Positions 10,832 to 47,400 of a stretch of 64,000 bases of DNA are shown here, piece by piece; the stretch's first letter is position 1; each line of letters starts with the position of its first letter. Origin of the DNA: Myxocyprinus asiaticus (Eukaryota > Chordata > Actinopteri > Cypriniformes > Catostomidae); assembly GCF_019703515.2 (NCBI RefSeq), contig NC_059379.1:26378880-26442879 (forward strand), in the 5' to 3' direction. A program made the position numbers and the translations under genes. Under the pieces are notes generated by a model. The model was not told the origin of the DNA and made no database searches. It worked only from the letters and a program-made list of their open reading frames with translations.

Positions 10832-12399
10832 GTGCATCTCAATAAATTAGAATGTCGTGGAAAAGTTCATTTATTTCAGTAATTCAACTCAAATTGTGAA
10901 ACTCGTGTATTACATAAATTCAGTGCACACAGACTGAAGTAGTTTAAGTCTTTGGTTCTTTTAATTGTGATGATTTTGGCTCACATTTAACAAAAACCCA
11001 CCAATTCACTATCTCAAAAAATTAGAATATGGTGACATGCCAATCAGCTAATCAACTCAAAACACCTGCAAAGGTTTCCTGAGCCTTCAAAATGGTCTCT
11101 CAGTTTGGTTCACTAGGCTACACAATCATGGGGAAGACTGCTGATCTGACAGTTGTCCAGAAGACAATCATTGACACCCTTCACAAGGAGGGTAAGCCAC
11201 AAACATTCATTGCCAAAGAAGCTGGCTGTTCACAGAGTGCTGTATCCAAGCATGTAAACAGAAAGTTGAGTGGAAGGAAAAAGTGTGGAAGAAAAAGATG
11301 CACAACCAACCGAGAGAACCGCAGCCTTATGAGGATTGTCAAGCAAAATCGATTCAAGAATTTGGGTGAACTTCACAAGGAATGGACTGAGGCTGGGGTC
11401 AAGGCATCAACCACACACAGACATGTCAAGGAATTTGGCTACAGTTGTCGTATTCCTCTTGTTAAGCCACTCCTGAACCACAGACAACATCAGTGGCATC
11501 TTACCTGGGCTAAGGAGAAGAAAAACTGGACTGTTGCCCAGTGTTCCAAAGTCCTCTTTTCAGATGAGAGCAAGTTTTGTATTTCATTTGGAAACCAAGG
11601 TCCTAGAGTCTGGAGGAAGGGTGGAGAAGCTCATAGCCCAAGTTGCTTGAAGTCCAGTGTTAAGTTTCCACAGTCTGTGATGATTTGGGGTGCAATGTCA
11701 TCTGCTGGTGTTGGTCCATTGTGTTTTTTGAAAATCAAAGTCACTGCACCCGTTTACCAAGAAATTTTGGAGCACTTCATGCTTCCTTCTGCTGACCAGC
11801 TTTTTAAAGATGCTGATTTCATTTTCCAGCAGGATTTGGCACCTGCCCACACTGCCAAAAGCACCAAAAGTTGGTTAAATGACCATGGTGTTGGTGTGCT
11901 TGACTGGCCAGCAAACTCACCAGACCTGAACCCCATAGAGAAATGGGGTATTGTCAAGAGGAAAATGAGAAACAAGAGACCAAAAAATTCAGATGAGCTG
12001 AAGGCCACTGTCAAAGAAACCTGGGCTTCCATACCACCTCAGCAGTGCCACAAACTGATCACCTCCATGCCATGCCGAATTGAGGCAGTAATTAAAGCAA
12101 AAGGAGCCCCTACCAAGTATTGAGTACATATACAGTAAATTAACATACTTTCCAGAAGGCCAACAATTCACAAAAAATGTTTTTTTTATTGGTTTTATGA
12201 TGTATTCTAATTTTTTGAGATAGTGAATTGGTGGGTTTTTGTTAAATGTGAGCAAAATCATCACAATTAAAAGAACCAAAGACTTAAACTACTTCAGTCT
12301 GTGTGCATTGGATTTATTTAATACACGAGTTTCACAATTTGAGTTGAATTACTGAAATAAATGAACTTTTCCACGACATTCTAATTTATTGAGATGCAC

Positions 12400-19274: not shown

Positions 19275-19329
19275 ATGACTCTACTGGGCTCTGAACATTC
19301 CATTCTGATTCGCAGCAAGTTTAAATCAG
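19275..19329 (+). CDS. myocd: myocd coding exon 1
   Basis: Encodes residues 1-18 ([18 protein letters not shown]) plus one base of codon 19. The donor G|GTGAGA leaves phase 1. This N-terminus is specific to myocardin among the MRTF family, which fixes the start codon; A at -3 is favourable for initiation. A (TG)n microsatellite follows only a few bases into the intron. Confidence 0.95.
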
Positions 19330-22300: not shown

Positions 22301-25300
22301 TTGCTGAGAACATTATTTGATCTAGTTTGTCTGCAAAGCTGTGATCATTCTTATTGAGGGCAACGACTTGGGGCAGTCATGAGCTCTGGTACTTTATTTT
22401 GCCCTGGTAAAGTGTTTTGCTTTTATTAATTCACCTGTTTTTGGAGCTGGACCGAAGCTCTGCCTTTAATGGGATTGTTTACCCATAAATTAAAATTCTC
22501 TGATCATTTACTCAACCGCGGATTGTTCCAAACCCGTCTGACTTTTTTTTTTTTCGTGGAACGCAAAGGCAGAATGTTAGTCTCCATTTACTTTCATTGC
22601 ATTACTTTTCACTTTTTTTTTTTTTTTCCCCATACAAATGAAAGTGAATGGTGACTGAGGCTGCCTTACACTGACTTTTGTGATCCACATAAGAAAGAAA
22701 GTCATATGGGTTTGGAACAATATGAGGAAGAGTACATTTTTTTTTTTTTTTAAAGTAAGTGATTTAATTGAGCACAGACAAGAGGTTCAGTGCTTATTCT
22801 TAAGGAGAAAGAACAGCACTATAGCATTAAAAGTTTGATCTAGATTGGTCCAGATTGAATTTCTTTCCATCTGCCAAAAACAGACTGATATATTGGCAGT
22901 GATTGTCTTAAGTTCATATCAGCGATCATGTGCGAAACTGCCAGTATTGTTTGTGCATGAGAGACTGTTTCTGTGTGCCAAGGCAGAACATCATTAGATT
23001 TCTCTTATTTGTCCACAGACTTGCAGTCCATGACAGTTGCTGGCATTGGACACAGAAGCACAGGTTGCCCAGTATGTGACCTAAACAAAAGCAGATGTAT
23101 GCAGATTGCTTTCGTGTGATATCAGCGGTATGAGTGAATATATGGCCATTGCCTTTGCATCAACTGCCCAATTATGCAGCTGCTTGGTTGATTTGCAATA
23201 TATGGGAGAACAAACGAGCGAACAAATGAACATTGACAAGAACAAGAACAAGAACTGGTGCATGTCCATATGGTCACCAACCAACATAACCTTGTTTCAG
23301 GAATTATATGTTATTTATAGAAAAGAGAAGCCATTTATTCCTTATTCTTCAAAGTCATAAGGATATTCACGTAAGGTATAATGTACAGTCACCCCGTAAT
23401 TATCGCAGAATAAACTTCCTCAGAGTGATAAAAGACCTCATTCGGAGTCCTGATCACCTTGTTGGGGTTTATTTGCGATAATGACCGACTGACTTTACAA
23501 TTCACTGCTCGTTACATGACTACTTAACAAAAAACAAAAATGGATTTGAAATATTGATTTGAGTTGAAATTATTTTATTCTGTATGTTGAAAGAAAGCAC
23601 CAAGTGATGTGTGATCATGTTGTCCCACCAGACATATTTGCATCGGTTTCAGTGAGTTTACCTTCCCACATGGCTCGACCGGCAGCGTGTTGCACCCAGA
23701 GACCTGGGTTCGTATCCACGTTGAAGCCAAGAAATAACTGCGTTCGCTTAATCATTGACGAGTGTGATTTGCAGGTTGCACTTTTCCCCCTGACATTTCA
23801 TTTTTACTCCACTAATGGTTAGGTTTAGGTTTGGGTTGGGGGGGTAGAGTCCATAAAATATGCATTCCTCTTCACTGTATTACATCCTGTACAGCCGAAA
23901 GGAACTTTTGGCGAACTCTCCTGGACATAAATGGAGCTCACACATGCCTACACGCCCTGCAACACTTACTGCTTTGGCCACTGGGGGCAGTGTTTTAAAT
24001 TTCGGTAAGCAGATACTGATTTTTGCTAAATAAAAGTCGACCTACTCTTTCCGATTTCACTGTGAAATTCTGCTGGGTGGGAAATGTTGGATGTCAGTGA
24101 GTCGGCATACTGTCGCAGATCCTAGGGTGCCGGAACTTTCGAAAACAGCATGCTGACATCCTGTGTGATCATGTTGACAAGAGGCACAAAACTAGCAGAA
24201 TGTTGGAGACTGGTTGACAATGGTCACATATACATTCATTGTACTAAACTATTTGACCACAGAATTCCACGATTAAACAATCAGTATCAAGTCTTCCAAA
24301 GTGCTGCGTAATGAAGACTTTTACACATGGACACTCAAGCAGTGGAGTGTCAGCTGCCCTGATGAGATGCACTCCACCAAAAACAAAGCAAAAAATTAAG
24401 CAACAGGCCCACAAATATTTTTTAAAACAGGATGTAGGGCTCTGATAAACACAGCTCCTGGCTTTTAAACAAATCTTCCTTGCAGTGTGTGGTCCTCCTG
24501 TGCCTGGGAGGGAGGTGCTCATAAATGTAAGAGGTGGGCCGTTAATCGACGCTGATGTGAGTGTGTCTCAGAGATGGTTCTGTGTGAGAGGAAATGAAAA
24601 ATTTGTCATCATTTATTCGCCCTCATTTATTCCGAAACCTGTATTACTACTGTGGAACACAAAATGAGTTATTTATAGCAGAACACTCAAGCTGCTCTTT
24701 TCCATTCAGTGAAAGTGTATGGTGACCTTGGCTGTCAAGCAACATTTTTAGTGAGTAACAACTTAAATTTCAGCCTGTTCATTATACAAAGCAATCATAT
24801 GGCTTTAAAAGACTTGGAATACAGCACATTAATTGTGGACTAATTATGATGTCCTTTTTGGAGCTTGACAGCCCCTGGTCCCCATCAACTTTCATTGAAT
24901 GGAAAAAGCAGCTCAGACATTCTGTTAAATGTCTCCATTGTGACAGAATTTTTATTTTGGGGTGAACTATCCCTTTAAAGGAGTGAAGGGGATGCAGCAT
25001 CTGCCTGTCCTACTATATATGATGTGTTCCTTCTCCGGACACAGATTAATACGTGATTTCTCCAGCTTCACTCATGATGAGTCATTATCTCTTCCTCTCT
25101 ATCTCTTTCTCTCTCTCCCTTCCTCCCTGCCTCCACCCACAGTCCTGCAGTTGAGACTCCAGCAGAGGAGGACACGAGAGCAACTCGCAGACCAGGGCAT
25201 CATGCCTCGTGAGTAATACCTCTATACTTCCCTGGACTTGTACCCCTCCACTTTAACAAAAACAGGCTTCGGTGGGTGGGTTTGTGAAACAGCCCAAACC

Positions 25301-28300
25301 TGCCTAAGATGGTCTTAACTGGTCTCCCAGCCCAGTGGCGAATGGTGCTTTTCAAAAGTGGGAAAGCACAGACTATTGTTTTTGGTGTCTGCTGCTCTCA
25401 AAGCTGCTCTTCTTAAACTGTGAAATTTCTAAACGAAAATAATTAACTCAAAACTTTTTTTGCAACACAAAACAGGCAAAACATCTGATTATAAAAGCTG
25501 AAATAAATGTGTTACATCAAATAATAACTACATGTGTATCTCTGAGACGTCAAACACTCGTCAACAGCGGTGATTTTACATTTCATATGTTGTCAATCAC
25601 GTATCACCATTTCAATTATTGGACATTTATTGAAAAGACCGCCCATTTGAGAGCTCAACCAATCATCACATTGAGAAACCGGGCTTCCAGGCAGGACAAA
25701 AATGCATTGATTGAGGGCCCAATGTTTAATAGACAAATAATGCCAATGAAGCTCCCATAGACTCCCAGAGAAGCACGGTGTCCAGGCAAGCCTCTGTAAG
25801 AGCCTCTAATCCAATTAACATCATTCTTTTGCCTCCTTGATTTGAATGGTACAGGTGTCTGCCATAGACTCCCATTAAAGCATGAACAGCACAATAGTGA
25901 TGTACATACGTACATTAAACCTGGTATTGCTGCATTTCTTATGAAATTATAAGGGAAGCCATTTGAGGAATTTTGGCCACTTTTCAACTGGTCTGGCTGG
26001 GAGCCAACCAGCCAAACACAAGCTCGGCCAGGCTGGGAGACCACCATGTGAACACCAGATTGGCCAAGTTGGGAGACCAGCTAAGCCATCTTAAACCAGC
26101 TATGACCAGAAAACCACCCATTTTAATTATTATTTTTTATTTTATTTTTCTGCAGGAAGGCCTCCCATTGGGGGCCAAATCCCACTTAAAAAAAACATTT
26201 TAAACCAGCCTACGCTGGTTTAAACTGGTCCTAGCTGGCTTTAGCTGGTCTACCAGCCTGGCCAAGCTGGAAAGTGCGCAAAATCCCTCTAAGACCAGCA
26301 AAAATGACACAGGTAGGCACGTGCTAATATGACAAATGAGCGAAGGAAAAGGCTGCTGTAAGCTGATCCACGTTGTGCTGCTTTAAATTAAGTGCTCCTC
26401 ACACGTTTCTGTTGCACTGTCAGCCAGCCTACAGGCTGACCTCACTGGAATGCTCTTGTGCTGAAGAGGTGATCTGGGCCCTGTGCGAGTCAGCTGCACC
26501 ACAATTACACCAACAACACCTGTTAACATTTAAATAGAAGAGCCACTTTCATATGAGCTGCAGTTGGCCACCTATGCATACTGGGCACAAAAACCTTGAA
26601 GATTTAATCTGCCTATTTAAATGACTGTAAGGCGATAAGAACGGGCTAACAGATAATAAACAGATGATCAAGCAAAACAGCATCTCTTTTTACCTGAAAA
26701 TGAGATCATGGACACAATTTAGGCTTCCTTATTAGAAAATCATTAGGTCTTGTGAAGAACAACACAGACACACTTTTCAGTAGACTGAGGTCTGGTCGAT
26801 ATTTCAGCTTTATTTGGCCAAGAACCACCTACTTAGAAAGATATAGTTTCACTGACATGTTAAGCAACCAACCACTGTTTTTTGTTTTGTTTTGGTTTTT
26901 ATTGTTTTTTTATGTGCTGTTGTGGCATGGATTTTCGAAAATAGCTGAGACCACAATATTAGACAGGAGTGGGGGGAAAACTACATCTCTACAAATGGTT
27001 GTACAGAAAACTAAATTTTTTTCTAATATCTGAAAGATTTGATGCTACTAACCTGCAAACTTTGGCAAATCCAGAGATTATTTCATTTTCAAAAGTGCTC
27101 ATTGTCTCAATGAGTATCTGTGCCTTTAGTATCGCTAAACACAACTTTGTTTCCAAGTAGACTAATAAGGAAACCTGTGTCCTTACACCCGGAAGAGCTT
27201 GCCAGTTAGTACAAGTGTTTTCCATTTTTGAGAGCAATATGTACAAGATGATCAGCGAAAGGACCTCAGATGGGACTGTGGATGTGTTTGAGGCTAAAAG
27301 TAACTTTTCAGAAGTTTTTAAACAAAGTCTCATATAATGAAAGTTGCATTGTAAGATAAGTCAAAGTTAAACACCCAAAGATATTAAAGAAAACAGGGCC
27401 GCATGCCTATCTATCTGCTAAAATATACTGCAGCCTTATTGGTGAATCTAATATTCTGCTTTAGGTTTAATAAATATACCGATATTCCTGATAGACTACT
27501 ATTGTAACTGTGTCACAGGTTACCTACTGTATATTTTCACTTGTGATAAGGTGTTTTAAATAAGCAGTTGAAATATACGGCTGGCCCAGCTTTAGATAAC
27601 CTGGCATAAGTGTGCACAGGAGAAGAATCAGCTGCCAGCTAGGCTCTATCAATTTCAGGGAGTCTGCCGGAGATAAAAATCCGCCCAAAAATGTGATTGG
27701 CTAGTCTGTGGTCCTTAAAAAAGAATTTTCAATGGCTGTTTATCTTTTTATGGCAGACAAGGGGCCAACAAAGTCAGATAAACAGTTTTTTAGGCATTTA
27801 AATAGGTGCTATACACTAGCCTAAATGCATGTCGATAAAGCGATATCTGCATAATAGCATACATGTTACAAAAATGAATGTTTTCTCGTTTAATCACCTT
27901 GTCTTGTGGATCTGACGTAGATAGCCCCTTTTTATTGCCCATCACTGTCAGGGTTTTTTTTTTTCGTGACCCCAAGCACTATTTTGCGACATCTGTTCAT
28001 GTGTTTGTTTTATTTTATATCTCACTGCTTTTTGAGAGTCAGTCCAACAAAAAGTAGATCTAATTCAACCTCTAGCACACTATATTTCCCATATATCATA
28101 ATGCACTTTACATTTTAAAGGGCTGTGTAAGACTGGAATTATGCAATCTGTTGCATTCCTTTGTGGAGGTGATATTTCAATCTTTCCTCTGCTTTTTGAG
28201 AGGATGGACTACACATATGCCCTGTGTATACATTTCCCTGAGAACATCTGATCTTTATTAGACACTTGAAAGCAGCAGTAAGGCCTCTCAGGGTTGTTTG

Positions 28301-31300
28301 GCGTGTGGCTGAGGAGGAGTCAGCAAGATGGACATCTTGGCTTTAGTGTTTGGCTTGTACATGGGCTATTCTCTGTCTGGACTAAAGGATTATGGAGACT
28401 TCTCATTCCACAATGTGTTACTTCAAACAGCTTTTTTTACACTCATTTGTGGTAATGTAATTAAAATATCTCTGTGCAACTTGAAACTTTTAGGTCTCAC
28501 TTTCCTGTAAAAATCTTTGAAATTAAAAACAATATGCATGTAAACATAACACTCACAGCGACAGATCGTAACATCATATGTCTGGTCAAATCTTATGAAA
28601 GAAGTCAAGAACATGTCCGGGTCAAATCTGTTCCCAAATTCAAAAGAGTAAGTAATAAGTAATAGCATTTTGCATGAAGTATTGCAAGTATGAAGGTACT
28701 GTGAATTTGGGCAGTGGTGTTTAATTGTCATGACAGCACTCTCAAAATACAAAAAAATTTCTTAATGGTTGCATAAATATTTTTATTTTTATTTTTTATT
28801 TTTTCTTGTTTATACCTTGTTTTGGGGGTGAAATGTGACCTTGACATGTTTGCTGGTAATTTACCCATCTTTGTTTATTTATTTTTTTCCAGGACATACA
28901 AGTACAATATTTTGTAGACTGGAGATTACTTAAAGTACGCAAAATCAGAAGAAGACCAGACAAATTAGAATTTATGAATATGTGTATTCTACGAAGTAAT
29001 ACCTGCAGTGCTTACCAGTCCCTCAAATAAATAATAATATAATAATAAGCCACAGAAAAGAAATATAAGGCCAAAATATATTTGAAACATAAAATACAGC
29101 TAGATTATATATTTTTTTATAATTATATGTTACCAGGGTTGGGAGGGTTACTTTTGAAATGTATTCCACTACAGATTACAGAATACATGCTGTAAAATGT
29201 AATTTGTAATGTATTCCGTTAGATTACTCAAGGACAGTAATGTATTCTAAATACTTTGGATTACTTCTTCAGCACTGGTAGATTTTTTCACTTGTTTTGA
29301 CTATAAAAACTCTGCCAGTACAGTAAGACAAAATACACACGTTAAAAATACATTCTCTGAAAAACATAAATATCTTATGCAGTGTTGTTTCTAAAACAAG
29401 ATCAATCAAACTGATCTTGTTTTAAGGATTTTTAGATATTTCTACAGGAAAACAATACAAAAATTATCATCAAGAATATGATTTTGTATACACATATTAT
29501 GTATACATCATGATGGCGCCGCGGATGGCCGCCTCGGTGTGGAGCGCTTCTATTGTTTTGTTGTTTTTGTTTGTTTGTCCTGTGTTTAGTAATCTTTTTC
29601 CAGTCAGTTTTACCAGAGACGAACTGCTGAACATTCGACAGCATATACCAGTCAATCTTTTCCCGGATTTTGAATATTCGGACGTTTTGTTTGACAAGAG
29701 ACGCGCTATGAGACGCAAGTGAGGGAGACGAGCAGGCACGCTGGTCAAACTCCGTCGGCATGGCTTTCGAATAACGCTGCCGAGCATTCATCTTGCGAAT
29801 CTCCGCTCTCTCCCTAACAAAACAGACAAACTACTTCTCCTCACCCGCACAAACAAGGACTTTTCAACCTCTGCTGCCTTGTGCTTCACAGAAACCTGGC
29901 TGAGTGAAGCCATTCCGGACAGCACATTACATCTGCTGGGCTTTCAGCTGTTCAGAGCAGATCGCATCGTGGAGTTAACAGGGAAAACGAGAGGCGGTGG
30001 AACATGCTTTTACATCAATGAAAGTTGGTGTACAGATGTAACAACGTTAAAGAAGATGCGCTGTCCTAATTTGGAAGTGCACTTTATTAACTGTAAGCCT
30101 TTCTACTCGCCGCGGGAGTTTTCCTCGTTTATTCTGGTGAGTGTGTATATCGCCAGATGCCAAACAAGTGTTTGAACACAGCGCTGCAACAGCTGGCTGA
30201 TCAAATCACAGACACAGAACAACAATACCCAGACTCAGTTATTATTATTCTTGGGGATTTTAACAAAGCAAACCTCACACGTGAACTGCCCAAATACAGA
30301 CAGCACATTACATGCCCCACCAGAGACAGAAATATACTGGATCACTGCTACACAACAATAAAGGATGCATATCGCTCTGTTCCTAGATCAGCTTTGGGAC
30401 TCTCTGATCACTGTCTGGTTCATCTTCTTCCAACCTACAGACAGAAATTAAAATCTGCTAAGCCTGTATTAAGGACTGTAAAAATATGGACCAACGAAGC
30501 AGAGCTGGAACTACAAGCCTGCTTTGACTGCACTGATTGGAGTGTTTTTGAGGCTGCAGCCACAGACCTGGATGAGCTCACAGATACTGTTACCCATATA
30601 TCAGTTTCTGTGAGGATATGTGCATTCCTACTAGGACTTATTTAACATTTAACAATGACAAACCATGGTTTACAGCGGAACTCAGGCAACTTCATCAGGC
30701 GAAAGAGGATGCTTACAGAGTTGGGGATAAAGTCTTGTACAATCAGGCCAGGAACGACCCTGCATCAGTGTGGAGTGGCATGAAACAACTTACGAATTAC
30801 AGGACTCCTACCCCCAACCCTGTAGGGAACCAACAACTGGCTGATGACCTTAATGTGTTCTACTGCAGATTTGAAAGGCCCAATCTCACACCCCACACCC
30901 ACTCTGACCTTCACTTCACACAAACACCAACACCTCCTGCAACCCCCCTCCTCCCCCCTCCTGCTACTCAACCTGCACTTAAGATCTGTGAAGATGATGT
31001 GAGCCGTGTCTTTCGAAAACAAAGGATAAGGAAAGCACAAGGCCCAGATGGCGTTTCACCTGCATGTCTTAGATCCTGTGCTAACCAGCTGGCCCCCATC
31101 TTCACACAGATCTTCAATAGATCACTGGAGCAGTGTGAAGTGCCATGCTGCTTCAAACATTCCACTATCATCCCCATCCCAAAGAAACCAAAAATCACAG
31201 GACTTAATACTACAGACCTGTCGCCCTGATGTCTGTGGTCATAAAATCATTTAAGATACTGGTGTTGGACCACCTGAAGGACATCACTGGACCCTTTCTA

Positions 31301-32608
31301 GATCCCCTTCAATTTGCTTATCGAGCAAACAGGTCTATGGATGATGCAGTCAACATGGGTTTGCATCATATCCTGCAACATCTGGACAGACCAGGAACAT
31401 ATGCAAGGATCCTTTTTGTGGACTTCAGTTCGGCTTTCAACACCATCATCCCAGCTATTCTCCGGACTAAATTACACCAACTCTCTGTTCCCACGTCTAT
31501 CTGTCAGTGGATTACCAGCTTTCTGACAGACAGGCAGCAGCTTGTGAGACAGGAGAAATTCATTTCCAGCACCTGTACAATCAGTACTGATGCCCCCCAG
31601 GGATGTGTGCTCTCCCCACTACTCTTCTCCCTCAACACCAACGACTGCATTGCCAAGGACCCCTCTGTCAAGCTCCTGAAGTTTGCAGATGACACCACTG
31701 TCATCAGCCTCATCCAAGATGACGATGAGTCTGCATACATAAGGGAGGTTAAACAGCTGGCTGTCTGGTGCAGTCAAAACAATCTGGAGCTGAACACGCT
31801 CAAAACAGTGGAGATGATGGTGGACTTTAGGAGGAACACCCCAACACTGACCCCCCTCACCATTCTAAACAGCAGCAGTGGACCTCACAGGACCTGAAGT
31901 GGGAGACCCACATTGACTCCATTGTGAAAAAGGCCCAGCAGAGGTTGTACTTCCTTCGCCAGTTGAGGAAGTTCAACCTGCCACAGGCGCTGCTGATACA
32001 GTTCTACTCAGCGGTCATTGAGTATGTCCTCTGCACTTCAATAACTATCTGGTTTGGTTCAGCTACGAAATCAGACATCAGAAGACTACAAAGGACAGTT
32101 CGGACTGCTGAGAGGATTATTGGTTATCCCCTGCCCCCCTTCAAGAACTATACACATCCAGAGTGAGGAAAAAGGCTGGAAAAATCATTCTGGACCCCAC
32201 TCACCCTGCCCACTACCTTTTTGAACTGTTGCCTTCTGGCCGACGCTTCAGAGCTCTGAGCACCAGAACCATCAGGCACGGAAAAGTTTTTTCCCCCCAG
32301 GCTATCCATCTCATGAACAGTTAAAACTGCCCCTTTGAGCAATAATTAATGTGCAATACACAGCTTAGTCTTTTTATATTATCCAACACATCCTACCTCT
32401 TCTGCCATTACATTCCCTTGCACTGTACATAACCGATTTGTATTTAGATTTGCACTACGTATGTGTATGTGTGTGTGTATGTATGTATGTATGTATGTAT
32501 GTATATGTATGTATATATATATTCATATATGTGTATATATGTGTGTGTGTATGTATGTGTATATGTATGTATATGTGTATGTGTATGTGTATGTATGTGT
32601 GTGTGTGC

Positions 32609-32641
<33 letters not shown>

Positions 32642-34218
32642 CAGGTGCATCTCATTAAATTAGAATGTCATGGAAAAGTTCATTTATTTCAGTAATTCAA
32701 CTCAAATTGTGAAACTCGTGTATTAAATAAATTCAATGCACACAGACTGAAGTAGTTTAAGTCTTTGGTTCTTTTAATTGTGATGATTTTGGCTCACATT
32801 TAACAAAAACCCACCAATTCACTATCTCAAAAAATTAGAATATGGTGACATGCCAATCAGCTCATCAACACAAAACACCTGCAAAGGTTTCCTGAGCCTT
32901 CAAAATGGTCTCTCAGTTTGGTTCACTAGGCTACACAATCATGGGGAAGACTGCTGATCTGACAGTTGTCCAGAAGACAATCATTGACACCCTTCACAAG
33001 GAGGGTAAGCCACAAACATTCATTGCCAAAGAAGCTGGCTGTTCACAGAGTGCTGTATCCAAGCATGTTAACAGAAAGTTGAGTGGAAGGAAAAAGTGTG
33101 GAAGAAAAAGATGCACAACCAACCGAGAGAACCGCAGCCTTATGATCATCAAGCAAAATCGATTCAAGAATTTGGGTGAACTTCACAAGAAATGGACTGA
33201 GGCTGGGGTCAAGGCATCAAGAGCCACCACACACAGACGTGTCAAGGAATTTGGCTACAGTTGTCGTATTCCTCTTGTCAAGCCACTCCTGAACCACAGA
33301 CAACGTCAGAGGCGTCTTACCTGGGCTAAGGAGAAGAAGAACTGGACTGTTGCCCAGTGTTCCAAAGTCCTCTTTTCAGATGAGAGCAAGTTTTGTATTT
33401 CATTTGGAAACCAAGGTCCTAGAGTCTGGAGGAAGGGTGGAGAAGCTCATAGCCCAAGTTGCTTGAAGTCCAGTGTTAAGTTTCCACAGTCTGTGATGAT
33501 TTGGGGTGCAATGTCATCTGCTGGTGTTGGTCCATTGTGTTTTTTGAAAACCAAAGTCACTGCACCCGTTTACCAAGAAATTTTGGAGCACTTCAGGCTT
33601 CCTTCTGCTGACCAGCTTTTTAAAGATGCTGATTTCATTTTCCAGCAGGATTTGGCACCTGCCCACACTGCCAAAAGCGCCAAAAGTTGGTTAAATGACC
33701 ATGGTGTTGGTGTGCTTGACTGGCCAGCAAACTCACCAGACCTGAACCCCATAGAGAATCTATGGGGTATTGTCAAGAGGAAAATGAGAAACAAGAGACC
33801 AAAAAATGCAGATGAGCTGAAGGCCACTGTCAAAGAAACCTGGGCTTCCATACCACCTCAGCAGTGCCACAAACTGATCACCTCCATGCCACGCCGAATT
33901 GAGGCAGTAATTAAAGCAAAAGGAGCCCCTACCAAGTATCGAGTACATATACAGTAAATGAACATACTTTCCAGAAGGCCAACAATTCACTAAAAATGTT
34001 TTTTTTAATGGTCTTATGATGTATTCTAATTTTTTGAGATAGTGAATTGGTGGGTTTTTGTTAAATGTGAGCAAAATCATCACAATTAAAAGAACCAAAG
34101 ACTTAAACTACTTCAGTCTGTGTGCACTGAATTTATTTAATACACGAGTTTCACAATTTGAGTTGAATTACTGAAATAAATGAACTTTTCCACGACATTC
34201 TAATTTATTGAGATGCAC

Positions 34219-41400: not shown

Positions 41401-44400
41401 TTGAAATTGTTTCCATGTTCTTCTTCTTGTGTTGTCTGTGTTCCTGATCCCTTCCTAATTGTATCCATATGTTTCTTGTTTGTCAATTACCCGTGTGTGT
41501 AATTACCACTCATGTAACTTGCTATTCAGTGGCTATAATGGTTAGTCTAAGTTTATTTCTTACAGTATTTTCCCAGTTCTATGTGTTTTGGATTCTTGTA
41601 TCTTGTACTCGTTGAATAAAAGGATGCAAGAGAGTGCAATAGTGGGGTTTCAGAAGTAAAATCCCATTCATTTTCTCCATAGAGAAATGTAATGATAACA
41701 TATAACACTTTCAAGACAGACCTGCTTAAAAAAGTCATGTAACTGAATAAGTCCTTCAAAACTGGACAAACCAGCGGACTAATCATCACATCTGAAATGT
41801 TGCTCTGGTCATCCTGAAATAAAGGTGTCCTGAAAATCCAAAGCCTGCATAGATTTTACAGAGCAAATAAGTCTAATACAAACTTGAACTGTGCCAAAGA
41901 GCAGGTTTATTGACACTTTGGAAAAATATATTATAGATCCACATGGTAAAGCCATAAGGAAGGAGGAACGCACACACATAGCACTCCTAGAACCGTGGGA
42001 CGTGCTGTCGCTTCCAGACATGAGAAAGTTACAGTATTTACAGGGTTTTGTCTGTGTGTTCTAAACCGCGAGTATTATATTAATAAAAGATCTCACAGTG
42101 GCCACAATTTTTCCGGAAGTGACAGTTTTGTTCTTTTGAACACATGGGATAGAAAGCGACTTTATTTGCACAATCCCCTATAGAGAAAATGAATAGGAAA
42201 AATTACAGCCCCTGAAGAAAAGTGGCTGGTCACTGTTGTGCTCTTTTAGGTCCTATAACTCCTGCTTTCCTGAGATCCACATTACAGAAAACATGACTAG
42301 AACCATTAAACAAAACAAATGTTTTGTTAACAATAAAGACGTGTTGAATATCAATGTCAGGCTTATATATTGCTGAAATTATTATAGTACAACATGGCCT
42401 CTCACATGTCCCAACAACAATTTGGTGAACAAAAATTATAAAAATAAAATGAAAAAAAAGTTTCATTGGTCAATATTTCTTTGCAGCAGTCAGACTAGCA
42501 TTTGGTTCAGAACTATAATTCAGCTTTATGAGAGATACACTGAGCCAGATCAGGTACTGGCAGAAATTATTTATGTAGGATTCATTGACAGCGTGTTCAC
42601 CGACACCTTTACAGATAAAAGTGTATCACATTTACTTAGTTCTCTCCCATTTGTTTTTCCAGCCTTGAAGAATCCGGCTGCATTCCATGAACAGAGGAAA
42701 AGTCTTGAGCGATCCAAGGTTAGAACTATAAGCAACATTATCTCAAAGAATCCTTCAAAAACAAAGTCACGTGGTATGCGGCATGTCTTTCAGACAATAG
42801 AAAAATAATTAAATTAAATGATTAGAAACAGTGCAATATGAAATTACAACAGGTGATTTCATTGTCTTGGTATTTTGTAAGTGTGTAAAAAAAAACAATT
42901 ATTTAATTAGTTGTGTCAATATTTTGCAGACTGGAGATTACTTAAAACACAAAATCAGAAGTAGGCCTGAGAAATCTGAGCTTATCAACATCAAAATTCT
43001 ACAAGGTAAGACCTTTGGTGCTTGTTACTGCACTCAAAAAATCTGAGATTACGCATTTCAATTAAATTACAAAATGCCATTACATTTAATTGAGTAATTT
43101 ATAACAATAAATAAATAAATAAATAAATAAAACAAAATATTATTAGTTTTATTAATGTAAAAAAATGCACAGGTGTATTAAATGGAATTTCGTTATGAAA
43201 TTTAAATGTGAAAATCTTAAAAACAGGCTAAAGTATTTTTATTTTTATTTTTAAAGTGTGTTGTTGCCAGATTAAAAAAATAAAAACACCCACATGGTGA
43301 AATTGATTATGTTTCAACCTTAGAATTTGAAAATATATTACTAAATGTACTTCCATGTTAAGAAAATGAGTAACACCAAGGTTTGCTTTAGCATCTGCCA
43401 AATGAATGTGCAGTCATGTGTAAATGTAGAGACAATGTGCCAACAAAACAGTAGGAAAATACTTCTGAATTCTTGTTGAAATTTATTTTAAAAATATATG
43501 TTTTGGACAATATTTATATATTTTGATTTTAAAAAAACAAATGAGATTTGGTCCAAAAATGATCTATATTTGCAAAATAATATATCTAACATTTATCCAA
43601 GACACATTTATATAAATGTATTACAAATATATAATACCAATATATTTTCCTGATATAGGAAATTTTGCCATTTTTCTATATTTTAAAATACATTAAAAAA
43701 TTACACATTTTTGCCATATGGGTGCATACACTGAATAACTAAAATAGCATTATAAAGGGGTCCTGGGTAGCTCAGTGAGTACAGATGCTGATTACCACCC
43801 CTGGAGTTGCGAGTTCGAATCCAGGGTGTGCTGAGTGACTCCAGCGAGGTCTCCTAAGCAACCAAATTGACCCGTTTGCTAGGGAGGGTAGTCACATGGG
43901 GTAACCTCCTCGTGGTCGCAATTAGTGTTTCTCGCTCTCAATGGGGTGCGTGGTAAGTTGTGCATGTATCGCGGAGAGTAGCATGAGCCTCCTCATGCTG
44001 TGAGTCTATGCGGTGTCATGCACAGTGAGCCACGTAATAAGATGCGCAGATTGACGGTCTCAGAAGTGGAGGAAACTGAGACTTGTCCTCCGCCATCTGG
44101 ATTGAGATGAATAACCACGCCACCACGAGGACCTACTAAGTAGTGGGAATTGGGCATTCCAAATTGGGAGAAAAGGGGATTAAAAAATAAATAAAAATAA
44201 CATTATAACATCTATGTATATAATGCCATGATGTCATAGAAAATAAGCCTTAAGTGAATCTGACTGTTCTCAGCAGATTTAGAGAAAGTGTATTTTCCAT
44301 AAAGATACAAAACACATGGTTTTGGCTTCAGTCATTACAGACTGTTTACAGCGGGAGCATTTTGACACTTCAGACCGAGCTTTGTGTGATCCACTCTGAA

Positions 44401-47400
44401 TGATGTGCACCTTGGAGGCCCAGACCTGGAAGCTCACACAATAACTGTTTATTCTAAAAATGTCTCTTGTGTTGCATCATGTATGTGTTTGAATGAAGGC
44501 CTGCTATACTGGATTAACAGTGCTTACCAACACTCTGTTTACTGTACAGACACGGCCAGTGAAGGCCCCGTACAAGACTCACAGACAAAACTTAAGCGCG
44601 CCAGGCTTGCCGACAACCTTAATGAGAAAATCGCTCTCAGACCAGGCCCACTGGAGCTGGTGGAGAAGAATATCATTCCTGCTGATTCAACTGTTAAAGA
44701 AGCGGCTATGAAAGGTATTTGAGGCAACCGGAATGTCAATGAATTTCATGGTTTTCACTAACAACCAATAGAGATAAAAGAGTTCATTGAGCAAAATGAA
44801 AACATTTTGTGTTTCAATACTCCAAACTTCCCCCCAAGTCCATATTTATTGAAACAAAACTGCCAAAATAATCATTTTTGATTGGTACATTACAGCATGG
44901 ATTGTTTTATGAATCTGTCACAGTGTGATGCAGTTTTTTTTTCCTTTGCCATTGAAGGATCAGTAAAAAAATATATATATTGGAATCGACAGTAAAACTG
45001 TAGCTTGTATGCGAGCAGAGAAAGCACTGTTTTTATTTTCACATGCAAAGGGAGCATTTCTTAAAGGCACAACAGCAAAAAAAGAAAAAAAAATAGAAAA
45101 AAAAATATATCTATATCTATATCTATATCTATATAGATATATATATATATATATATATATACTTCTAAGGGTCAGAAAGAGGCTGGAAAATAATAATGAA
45201 ATACTAAATTATGAGTTTTTTCTGGACACACACACAAAAAGCCTACTAACATTCAACTACCCATTTACAAGGGAGTATTGCAGTATCAACATTGACACTT
45301 TTTAAAGTCTGTCCGATCACCCCTTGGGATTGATGGCACCCCTATGCATTGCATATATTGCATATATAGTTTTTGCGCCTGCTGCTAAGATTATACAGTA
45401 AGTGGATATTTTAAGTATAAATTGAATAATTTGACTGAAAACCAAACCTTTTAGTGTTAAAATAATAACATTAAAAATCCTAAATGAGTCAACATTTTAA
45501 TTAATTTTGCATCTTCCATTCATGACTGTCCCAACAATGCCCAGAATTCCAAGCTAATGATGTTTAGCGAGATTCCTTAAATTCCTCCCAACCTTTGCCT
45601 CAACAAACACCATTTGATTTAGGAGGCTATTCGCTCTTGCTCACAGGCATTAACTTCCAATGTGTTTACTATGTAGTCTGACCACAGTATGTTGTCCCCT
45701 TAGATCCCCCCAAAGCCAATGTTTTTGGACATGCTCAATGTAAACATTTTGTGTTTCCCCCCTGGAGCTGTCTGTAAATGTATTGCATAAGCCAGGCATG
45801 AGGCTGGGGGCGATAGTTTATATTACCACTGTTGGAAGAGGAACATGTTTTATTGAGACAAATAGCAGCTGTATTTAAATCCACCTTTATGCTGGAGATC
45901 AAATGAATGTCCCCCTCATTTCTCTGTTTTGACTCGTTATGATTTATGTGGCTCCACCAAACCACCTACAAAGGTGTTTGAGAAGATGGGGTGCTCCCCA
46001 GCCATCTACTGCCACTAAAACTGTCCCTACAAATGTCACTTCATAGAAAAAAGAGCTGTACCTGTGAAAGCCTATTTTCAGCAGTCATTATTCCAATCTA
46101 CAAAACTAGGAAGTCATTCTAATGTGGTAATGTGATACTAGAGAAACCATTCTTGACCTTTCACTGACTGAAAATGCCTAAAGTCGAAATTTATGCAGAT
46201 TTACGCATTTAAATTATATGACAAATGTTCATCAAACTGAAGACATTTTTAAATAATAATATTATAAATTGAACATTAATTTGAAGTATTTAAGTTTAAA
46301 TACGTCACATTACGCTTGAGTCAATCATATGTAAATTTTGGTAAAGATTACTCAGTTCAGTTTGATGTACAGTAATTTTGTCTTACAATTGAAATGCATA
46401 AATCTGCGTAAATTTAGACTTTAGGTATTTTCACAGTCAGTTTTTAAAGCTATTAAGGTGGTTTCATTTTCATTTTCTTTTTTTTTCTTTTTTTTTTTTT
46501 TTTAGTTATGAACAAATTTTGAAGAATACAGTATTTAAAATAAATAGTCATGTTTAACACTATGAATGTCTCTACTGCAACCTTGGTGAAGAAAAGTATC
46601 TTTTTCATTCAACAACACAAATTTCATGATGATTCTAAACTTTTCAATGGTAGTGTATGTGGATATGATGAACAATAAGTCCTTAGAAATCTATTCTTTT
46701 GTTCAAAGAAACTTTGAGTACATTTTCATGTCAAATTAGTGCACATGCTCTGACACATTGAGCCATAATGCTCATGCAGGTTGTGCGAGTTTGAATCTGG
46801 CTTGCAACATTTTTTGATCCTGTTCCCCTTCTATAAATCCCCTGCCTTTAAATAAAAAAGTGATCAAAAAAAATAAATAAAAAGGAAATGAAATAAATTG
46901 CATTATGTTGATGAAGTAGGAGCAATATAGTGCATTTTCTTTCCAAACACAACTGTTTTAGACGATCTAAGATGGTACAAGTGGACAGGCAGTAGCCAGG
47001 TGCTCTCTGGGCCTTTTTCATATTGCACAGGCCAGTCCAACATCAACAACTGAAGGAAATAACACTCACACATTTCCCAGTGTGTGACGAAGGCAGCGGA
47101 CAGTGTGTGCCCAGCACACTCGTGCAAAGTGTGCTTGACATGATTAAATCCAGTCTCTGCACTCCTGGCAGGTCACATGCTTAGATATGGAATCAGTCAT
47201 ACAAACACACACAAATAATTGCCCCTTCCAAGTGTGCACTCAAACCAGTGTTTGAGTAGTTAGCAACATTGTGAAATGTGAACTTAACTACATTTTTCAG
47301 TAGCTTGACTGTAGCTCAGCTATTTTCACAATCGTTTAGCATTCTACTTTTTTTCAGTAAGTAGCTGTGTAGCATCACAATGTAGCGTCTTCTTTTTGAA

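Follow-up and report, generated by a model that had tools for sequence, protein, structure and literature searches.

Tandemly duplicated exons are reportedly the subject of work by Letunic in 2002 and by Kondrashov and Koonin in 2001. According to an excerpt of a further study (PMC5740500), the criterion for mutually exclusive duplicated exons is a shared reading frame and a length difference that is a multiple of three. The exon copy analysed here shares with the exons of that excerpt its basic make-up, a diverged exon copy bordered by AG and GT within an intron of the gene that it derives from, and its similarity to a neighbouring exon. It departs from them in length and frame, being 78 nt long against the 76 nt of its source and containing stops in phase 0, and in arrangement, as exon 3 separates the copy from its source, exon 4.

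The second described system is exon 2a of mammalian Myocd. As characterised in excerpts of three reports (PMC3833424, PMC6613909, PMC9900090), this 44-bp exon lies between exons 2 and 3, carries an in-frame stop and is included in differentiated smooth muscle, where translation then starts at the exon 4 ATG. In the same excerpts RBPMS promotes exon 2a inclusion via downstream CAC clusters, such clusters are present in the rat Myocd intron, and QKI represses inclusion. The sucker family has its own genome duplication, for which an excerpt of PMC8412299 gives a Ks peak of 0.184; that genome paper also reports RNA-seq reads from 12 tissues of Myxocyprinus asiaticus.

The host gene and its duplicated exon 4

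The window, by which we mean the whole 64,000-nucleotide stretch of Myxocyprinus asiaticus DNA analysed, carries the myocardin gene (myocd) on the + strand. The joined peptide of exons 2-5 contains three Pfam RPEL stretches, and the first five exons were placed as follows:

19275..19329, + strand: myocd exon 1, coding part, from protein matches, with the start at 19275
25143..25208, + strand: myocd exon 2, exit phase 1, from frame reading
42663..42718, + strand: myocd exon 3, entry phase 1, exit phase 0, from frame reading
42930..43005, + strand: myocd exon 4, which encodes RPEL2 and gave rise to the copy, entry phase 0, exit phase 1, from frame reading and Pfam
44550..44714, + strand: myocd exon 5, entry phase 1, from frame reading

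Three retrieved proteins (P0027, P0001 and P0003) were aligned to the window. P0027, a myocardin-like protein of the Chinese sucker, Myxocyprinus asiaticus, gave 13 pieces, nine of them at 98-100% identity and the remaining four, which appear to overrun exon ends, at 42-96%. Since another Myxocyprinus asiaticus record (P0001) and a protein from Xyrauchen texanus (P0003) fitted the window less well, the window most likely represents one of two Myxocyprinus homeologs.

Several observations on the architecture of the gene were made alongside. P0027 begins with 34 residues (MNAISLEQ...) that are absent from the window, and proteins of loach, carp and catfish begin with comparable MNA sequences, so that a further myocd first exon probably sits elsewhere, outside the window. 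Three database proteins, P0110, P0134 and P0152, from Myxocyprinus, Triplophysa and Cyprinus carpio, lack exon 2 and RPEL1: their exon 1 continues directly, and in frame, into exon 3 (KSALKSP). In the carp proteins P0144 and P0148 the start peptide runs into exon 3 without exon 2 (LIDSLFTDK...FVFPALKSP); a similar open stretch (FIDSVFTDT...FVFPALKNP) occupies approximately 42560-42662 of the window, in the intron upstream of exon 3, and is a possible alternative start. The window also holds two near-identical transposase frames of Tc1 type (11083-12123 and 32896-33957) and, in intron 2 less than 1 kb downstream of the copy, retroelement-like frames at 29723-32166, all typed by eye.

A preliminary description of this DNA had taken positions 28918-28995 for a diverged copy of exon 4, splice borders included, that measured 78 nt against 76 nt through a net gain of 2 nt. 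Our blastn comparison of 28793-29129 with the window confirmed this assignment, and the gain was located as a TA after codon 6. The next-best matches outside the query reached only E 0.017 or worse in comparison to 2.6e-19 for exon 4, which excludes chance. The elements of the duplicate are:

28905..29013, + strand: full extent of the blastn match to 42917-43023, 78% over 109 bp, E 2.6e-19
28918..28995, + strand: exon part of the duplicate, a 78-nt diverged version of myocd exon 4 that lies in intron 2 and reads openly in phase 1 alone, from blastn, frame reading and alignment
28936..28937, + strand: TA insertion relative to exon 4, from alignment, exact position uncertain by one or two bases

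The block is a real duplicated exon with its borders. Homology extends beyond the exon part for 13 nt upstream and, downstream, for 18 nt (blastn) to about 37 nt (gapped alignment), and both the AG and the GT are retained. Once one TA is taken out, whole codons comprise 75 bases, and 17 of these differ from exon 4; the first codons are shifted, and downstream of the insertion the copy returns to exon 4's own codons.

Three broader origins were tried and rejected. A longer duplicated block was discarded as flanks of 120 nt gave no better alignments than shuffled sequence, although at this divergence a neutral flank may have become unrecognisable. An accompanying copy of exon 3 was rejected likewise: the 420 nt upstream of the exon 4 copy align to exon 3 no better than shuffles, and no window match better than E 0.069 was found outside self and the known block. 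Carriage by a transposon was rejected on the basis of blastn of 28000-29500 within the window, whose only results were self, exon 4 and a short inverted match of the segment to itself (29392-29424). Among the papers listed for myocardin exon duplication and for myocardin and RPEL in zebrafish, no title or abstract opening describes this exon.

Reading frames and splice signals of the copy

The copy had been described as open only when entered in phase 1 and as joining exon 2 to exon 5 in frame, and frame reading upheld both points. The phase-1 frame is open over the whole copy, the other two entries meet stops (phase 0, exon 4's own frame, among them), and the exit phase of exon 2 and the entry phase of exon 5 are both 1. 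The 78 nt are a multiple of three, and a second join, exon 2-copy-exon 3-exon 4-exon 5, also keeps the frame because exon 3 accepts phase 1. This inclusion adds 26 residues; it is a simpler event than exon 2-copy-exon 5 and was absent from the preliminary description. Splicing of the copy directly to exon 4 is out of frame.

Judged from junction residues, exon 1, exon 2 and alternative first exons (such as those of P0027 and P0068) would all pass phase 1 to the next exon, and a phase-1 entry into exon 4 yields 10 residues and then a stop. A fresh 76-nt, phase-0 copy would therefore have been unreadable as an RPEL in those transcripts until the insertion occurred, which would remove the most natural route for selection to keep the copy as coding sequence. 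The earlier estimate of roughly one in three holds for phase alone; in simulation the last 18 codons of a neutral copy stay open in 74% of runs, and multiplication by 0.74 brings the chance of phase and openness together to about 0.25.

Splice sites were scored with a simple frequency matrix, with the 991 GT and 999 AG of intron 2 as background; scores of eight later exons were excluded because their ends had been picked automatically and some picks were plainly wrong. The signals in and around the copy are listed below, the first three from the matrix and the last read from the sequence:

28891..28892, + strand: strong alternative acceptor AG, 15.42 bits, a score that 2 of the 999 intron 2 AG reach
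28916..28917, + strand: acceptor AG of the copy, 1.96 bits, reached by 236 of the 999 intron 2 AG
28996..28997, + strand: donor GT of the copy, 2.67 bits, reached by 152 of the 991 intron 2 GT
29026..29031, + strand: AATAAA overlapping the read-through stop TAA 29028-29030

In the true exons, by the same matrix, the donors of exons 1-5 score 5.45-10.93 bits and the acceptors of exons 2-5 6.50-12.08 bits. Neither border of the copy rises above background, and the donor context reads GAA/GTAATA in comparison to AAG/GTAAGA in exon 4. The acceptor before 28893 is strong but frame-breaking: it lies outside the duplicated block, 25 nt upstream of the copy, and phase-1 reading from it ends early, within the copy, at TAA 28931-28933. 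Reading through the copy donor had been said to give a protein that ends at a TAA at 29027-29029 next to an AATAAA-like word; the word is there, as AATAAA, but the stop lies one base further on, at 29028-29030.

These signals bear on the view that the copy acts as a poison or terminal exon, whereby splicing into 28893 or 28918 would lead to a stop and then to mRNA decay, or to cleavage after the AATAAA at 29026-29031, with less Myocd as the outcome. The strength of the upstream acceptor, the early TAA of the 28893 version and the AATAAA itself are consistent with such a role. Intron 2, however, contains 37 AATAAA or ATTAAA words, so that one here is unremarkable, and the matrix scan found no donor above 5.4 bits between 28893 and 29600. 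We regard a poison or terminal exon as very unlikely.

Peptide, selection and age of the copy

An altered RPEL core had been attributed to the copy, and the alteration itself stands: the RPxxxEL core of PF02755 is absent and the copy reads RPDKLEF (EL to EF). Recognition as an RPEL repeat is lost to Pfam, however, as the copy peptide matched no family at E up to 10; the exon 4 peptide alone is assigned to the RPEL repeat (PF02755) with 23.2 bits against a cut-off of 23. The best PDB match of the copy peptide was RPEL2 of MRTF-A/MAL (PDB 2yje, 2yjf, 2v52, 3tpm, 3tpq), in which RKIRSRPERAELVRMHIL aligns with residues 8-25 of the phase-1 peptide at a non-significant E of 0.28. That repeat carries RPxxxEL where the copy carries RPxxxEF, and the part of the copy before the insertion is out of register.

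All 177 retrieved proteins, MRTF proteins included, could be aligned over exon 4 and gave 41 distinct peptides, 40 besides the window's own. The copy has a residue unseen among these 40 at 6 of 25 columns (7, 11, 18, 19, 22 and 25), and in the window's exon 4 this applies to two columns, 21 and 22. The possibility that the Arg at column 7 of the copy is ancestral (compare LKRKI in MRTF-A) was rejected, as 40/40 other distinct peptides have His.

A search with 4-letter words over the first 250 residues of the 177 proteins found the copy peptide in none of them. The only word recovered was RPDK, which lies inside exon 4 itself in loaches (Triplophysa, Misgurnus), a conger and one further protein. 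Of the 3278 candidates obtained with the cassette in the query sequence, E 0.001 was passed by 2809; a representative with the cassette should rank first, and the top match (240 bits) has ordinary structure, which indicates that there is no such representative among the best 120 of the 2809. A fragment-length query found two proteins, neither with the copy. These searches covered the representatives of 90% clusters, the cluster of P0027 having 13 members.

Pairwise comparison of copy and exon 4 gave a dN of 0.217 and a dS of 0.534, from 11.5 nonsynonymous and 5.5 synonymous differences (the latter in 14.8 sites), and with so few differences dN/dS alone was rejected as a means of deciding. Simulations were judged on counts (3000 runs, exon 4 held at omega 0.15, total differences 16-18). 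The nonsynonymous count of 11.5 equals the neutral-copy mean and was reached in 17.6% of runs at omega 0.5 and 2.4% at omega 0.2. Third codon positions hold 11/17 differences, a share reached in 1.2% of neutral runs (P 0.012), in comparison to 8.1% at omega 0.5 and 27.9% at omega 0.2. The two measures disagree, as the nonsynonymous count fits a neutral copy whereas the third-position excess speaks against pure neutrality. Our judgement leans more on the splice sites and the phase argument than on this excess, and constraint could have acted during part of the copy's history.

The third-position excess is one of two observations that would agree with a working cassette, the other being the two in-frame joins. 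Such a cassette would add 26 residues between RPEL1 and RPEL2 when placed between exons 2 and 3, or would replace exons 3 and 4, and so change actin sensing. This possibility must be set against the weak donor and acceptor of the copy, the lack of an RPEL match (E 0.28 for the best solved RPEL2), the broken conserved residues and the absence of the peptide from the 177 retrieved proteins, and we consider it unlikely. The preliminary description had left a choice between a real alternative exon that alters actin sensing and a pseudo-exon whose frame is chance. Background splice scores, no RPEL match, changed conserved residues and absence from the 177 proteins make the pseudo-exon the better supported of the two; for the alternative exon, frame compatibility was correct, and the positive evidence comes down to that fit, with its chance of about 0.25, and the third-position excess.

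With regard to age, 11/28 intron bases downstream of the copy differ from their exon 4 counterparts, and the copy retains a Met opposite an Ile of the window's exon 4. A synonymous distance of about 0.5 and these intron differences, in comparison to the Ks of 0.184 for the sucker duplication, together with the retained Met, suggest, with wide error, that the copy predates that duplication. Other suckers should in that case possess the copy.

Comparison with exon 2a and meaning of the locus

Like mammalian exon 2a the copy lies between exons 2 and 3, a likeness of position. Exon 2a brings an in-frame stop after exon 2; the copy brings one when entered at 28893 and none when entered at 28918. 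Downstream, where exon 2a has its regulatory motifs, the surroundings of the copy hold no ACTAAY (QKI) in 28593-29246 and only two CAC in 28996-29246, and whereas exon 2a is used in smooth muscle, the copy has a weak donor. The exon 2a system restarts at the exon 4 ATG, but the exon 4 peptide of the window is without Met.

At 42990-42992 the window's exon 4 has Ile (ATC) in a column that is Met in 37/40 other distinct peptides, Leu in two and Arg in one; one Xyrauchen homeolog (P0003) has Leu there. This column we take to be the start Met of mammalian smooth-muscle Myocd. Judged from these residues, the short myocardin isoform may be missing from one sucker homeolog through loss.

A fish counterpart of exon 2a would arise if an exon from 28893 stopped the long frame and translation restarted at ATG 28974 or 28980 within the copy, giving a form without exons 1-2. 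It would lie in the same intron as exon 2a, behind a strong acceptor; the TAA reached from 28893 is in frame, both ATGs are in frame with exon 3, and the window's exon 4 has no in-frame ATG of its own. Yet the CAC clusters of rat have no equivalent in the two CAC of 28996-29246, ACTAAY is lacking in 28593-29246, and the donors on offer score only 2.67 bits (28996) or 4.5 bits (28935, a donor whose use would exclude the ATGs). Furthermore, NMCI occurs in none of the 177 retrieved proteins, and hence none starts MNMCILR; a query for an isoform with that start gave 250 proteins, and among the 120 of them listed there was no such isoform. A counterpart of exon 2a is therefore exceedingly unlikely on these grounds, and we give equally little credence to a moved smooth-muscle-type start, in which the exon 4 Met would have been lost while the copy exon from 28893 stopped the long frame and supplied new ATGs in the frame of exon 3.

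Overall, positions 28918-28995 are very probably a decaying exon duplicate, an unused fossil. Against this reading stand the third-position excess, the fully open phase-1 frame of 78 nt, the retained GT and AG and the very strong acceptor before 28893. A small segment containing exon 4 and its intron borders would have been duplicated within the gene and inserted in intron 2, about 14 kb upstream of its source, at a time that probably precedes the genome duplication specific to suckers. Running from phase 0 to phase 1, the new copy would have been unreadable as an RPEL repeat after phase-1 exons, and its inclusion would have met a stop. Subsequent drift would have introduced some eight amino-acid changes and the 2-nt insertion and removed the G at -1 and the G at +5 of the donor, with the insertion making the remnant frame-compatible by accident, at a chance of about 1/4. 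The copy would most likely be skipped in essentially all mRNAs.

The readings differ in what they would mean. If the copy were spliced in, it would alter the actin-sensing end of a main heart and smooth-muscle regulator in a lineage-specific manner, and would do so from the very intron that houses the mammalian isoform switch by exon 2a. A moved start, if true, would be an exon-2a switch rebuilt from a duplicated exon in a sucker homeolog. As a fossil exon, the favoured reading, the copy would be a case of an ill-fitting duplicated exon made frame-compatible by a chance insertion, and it would caution that frame fit is not to be taken as evidence of function.
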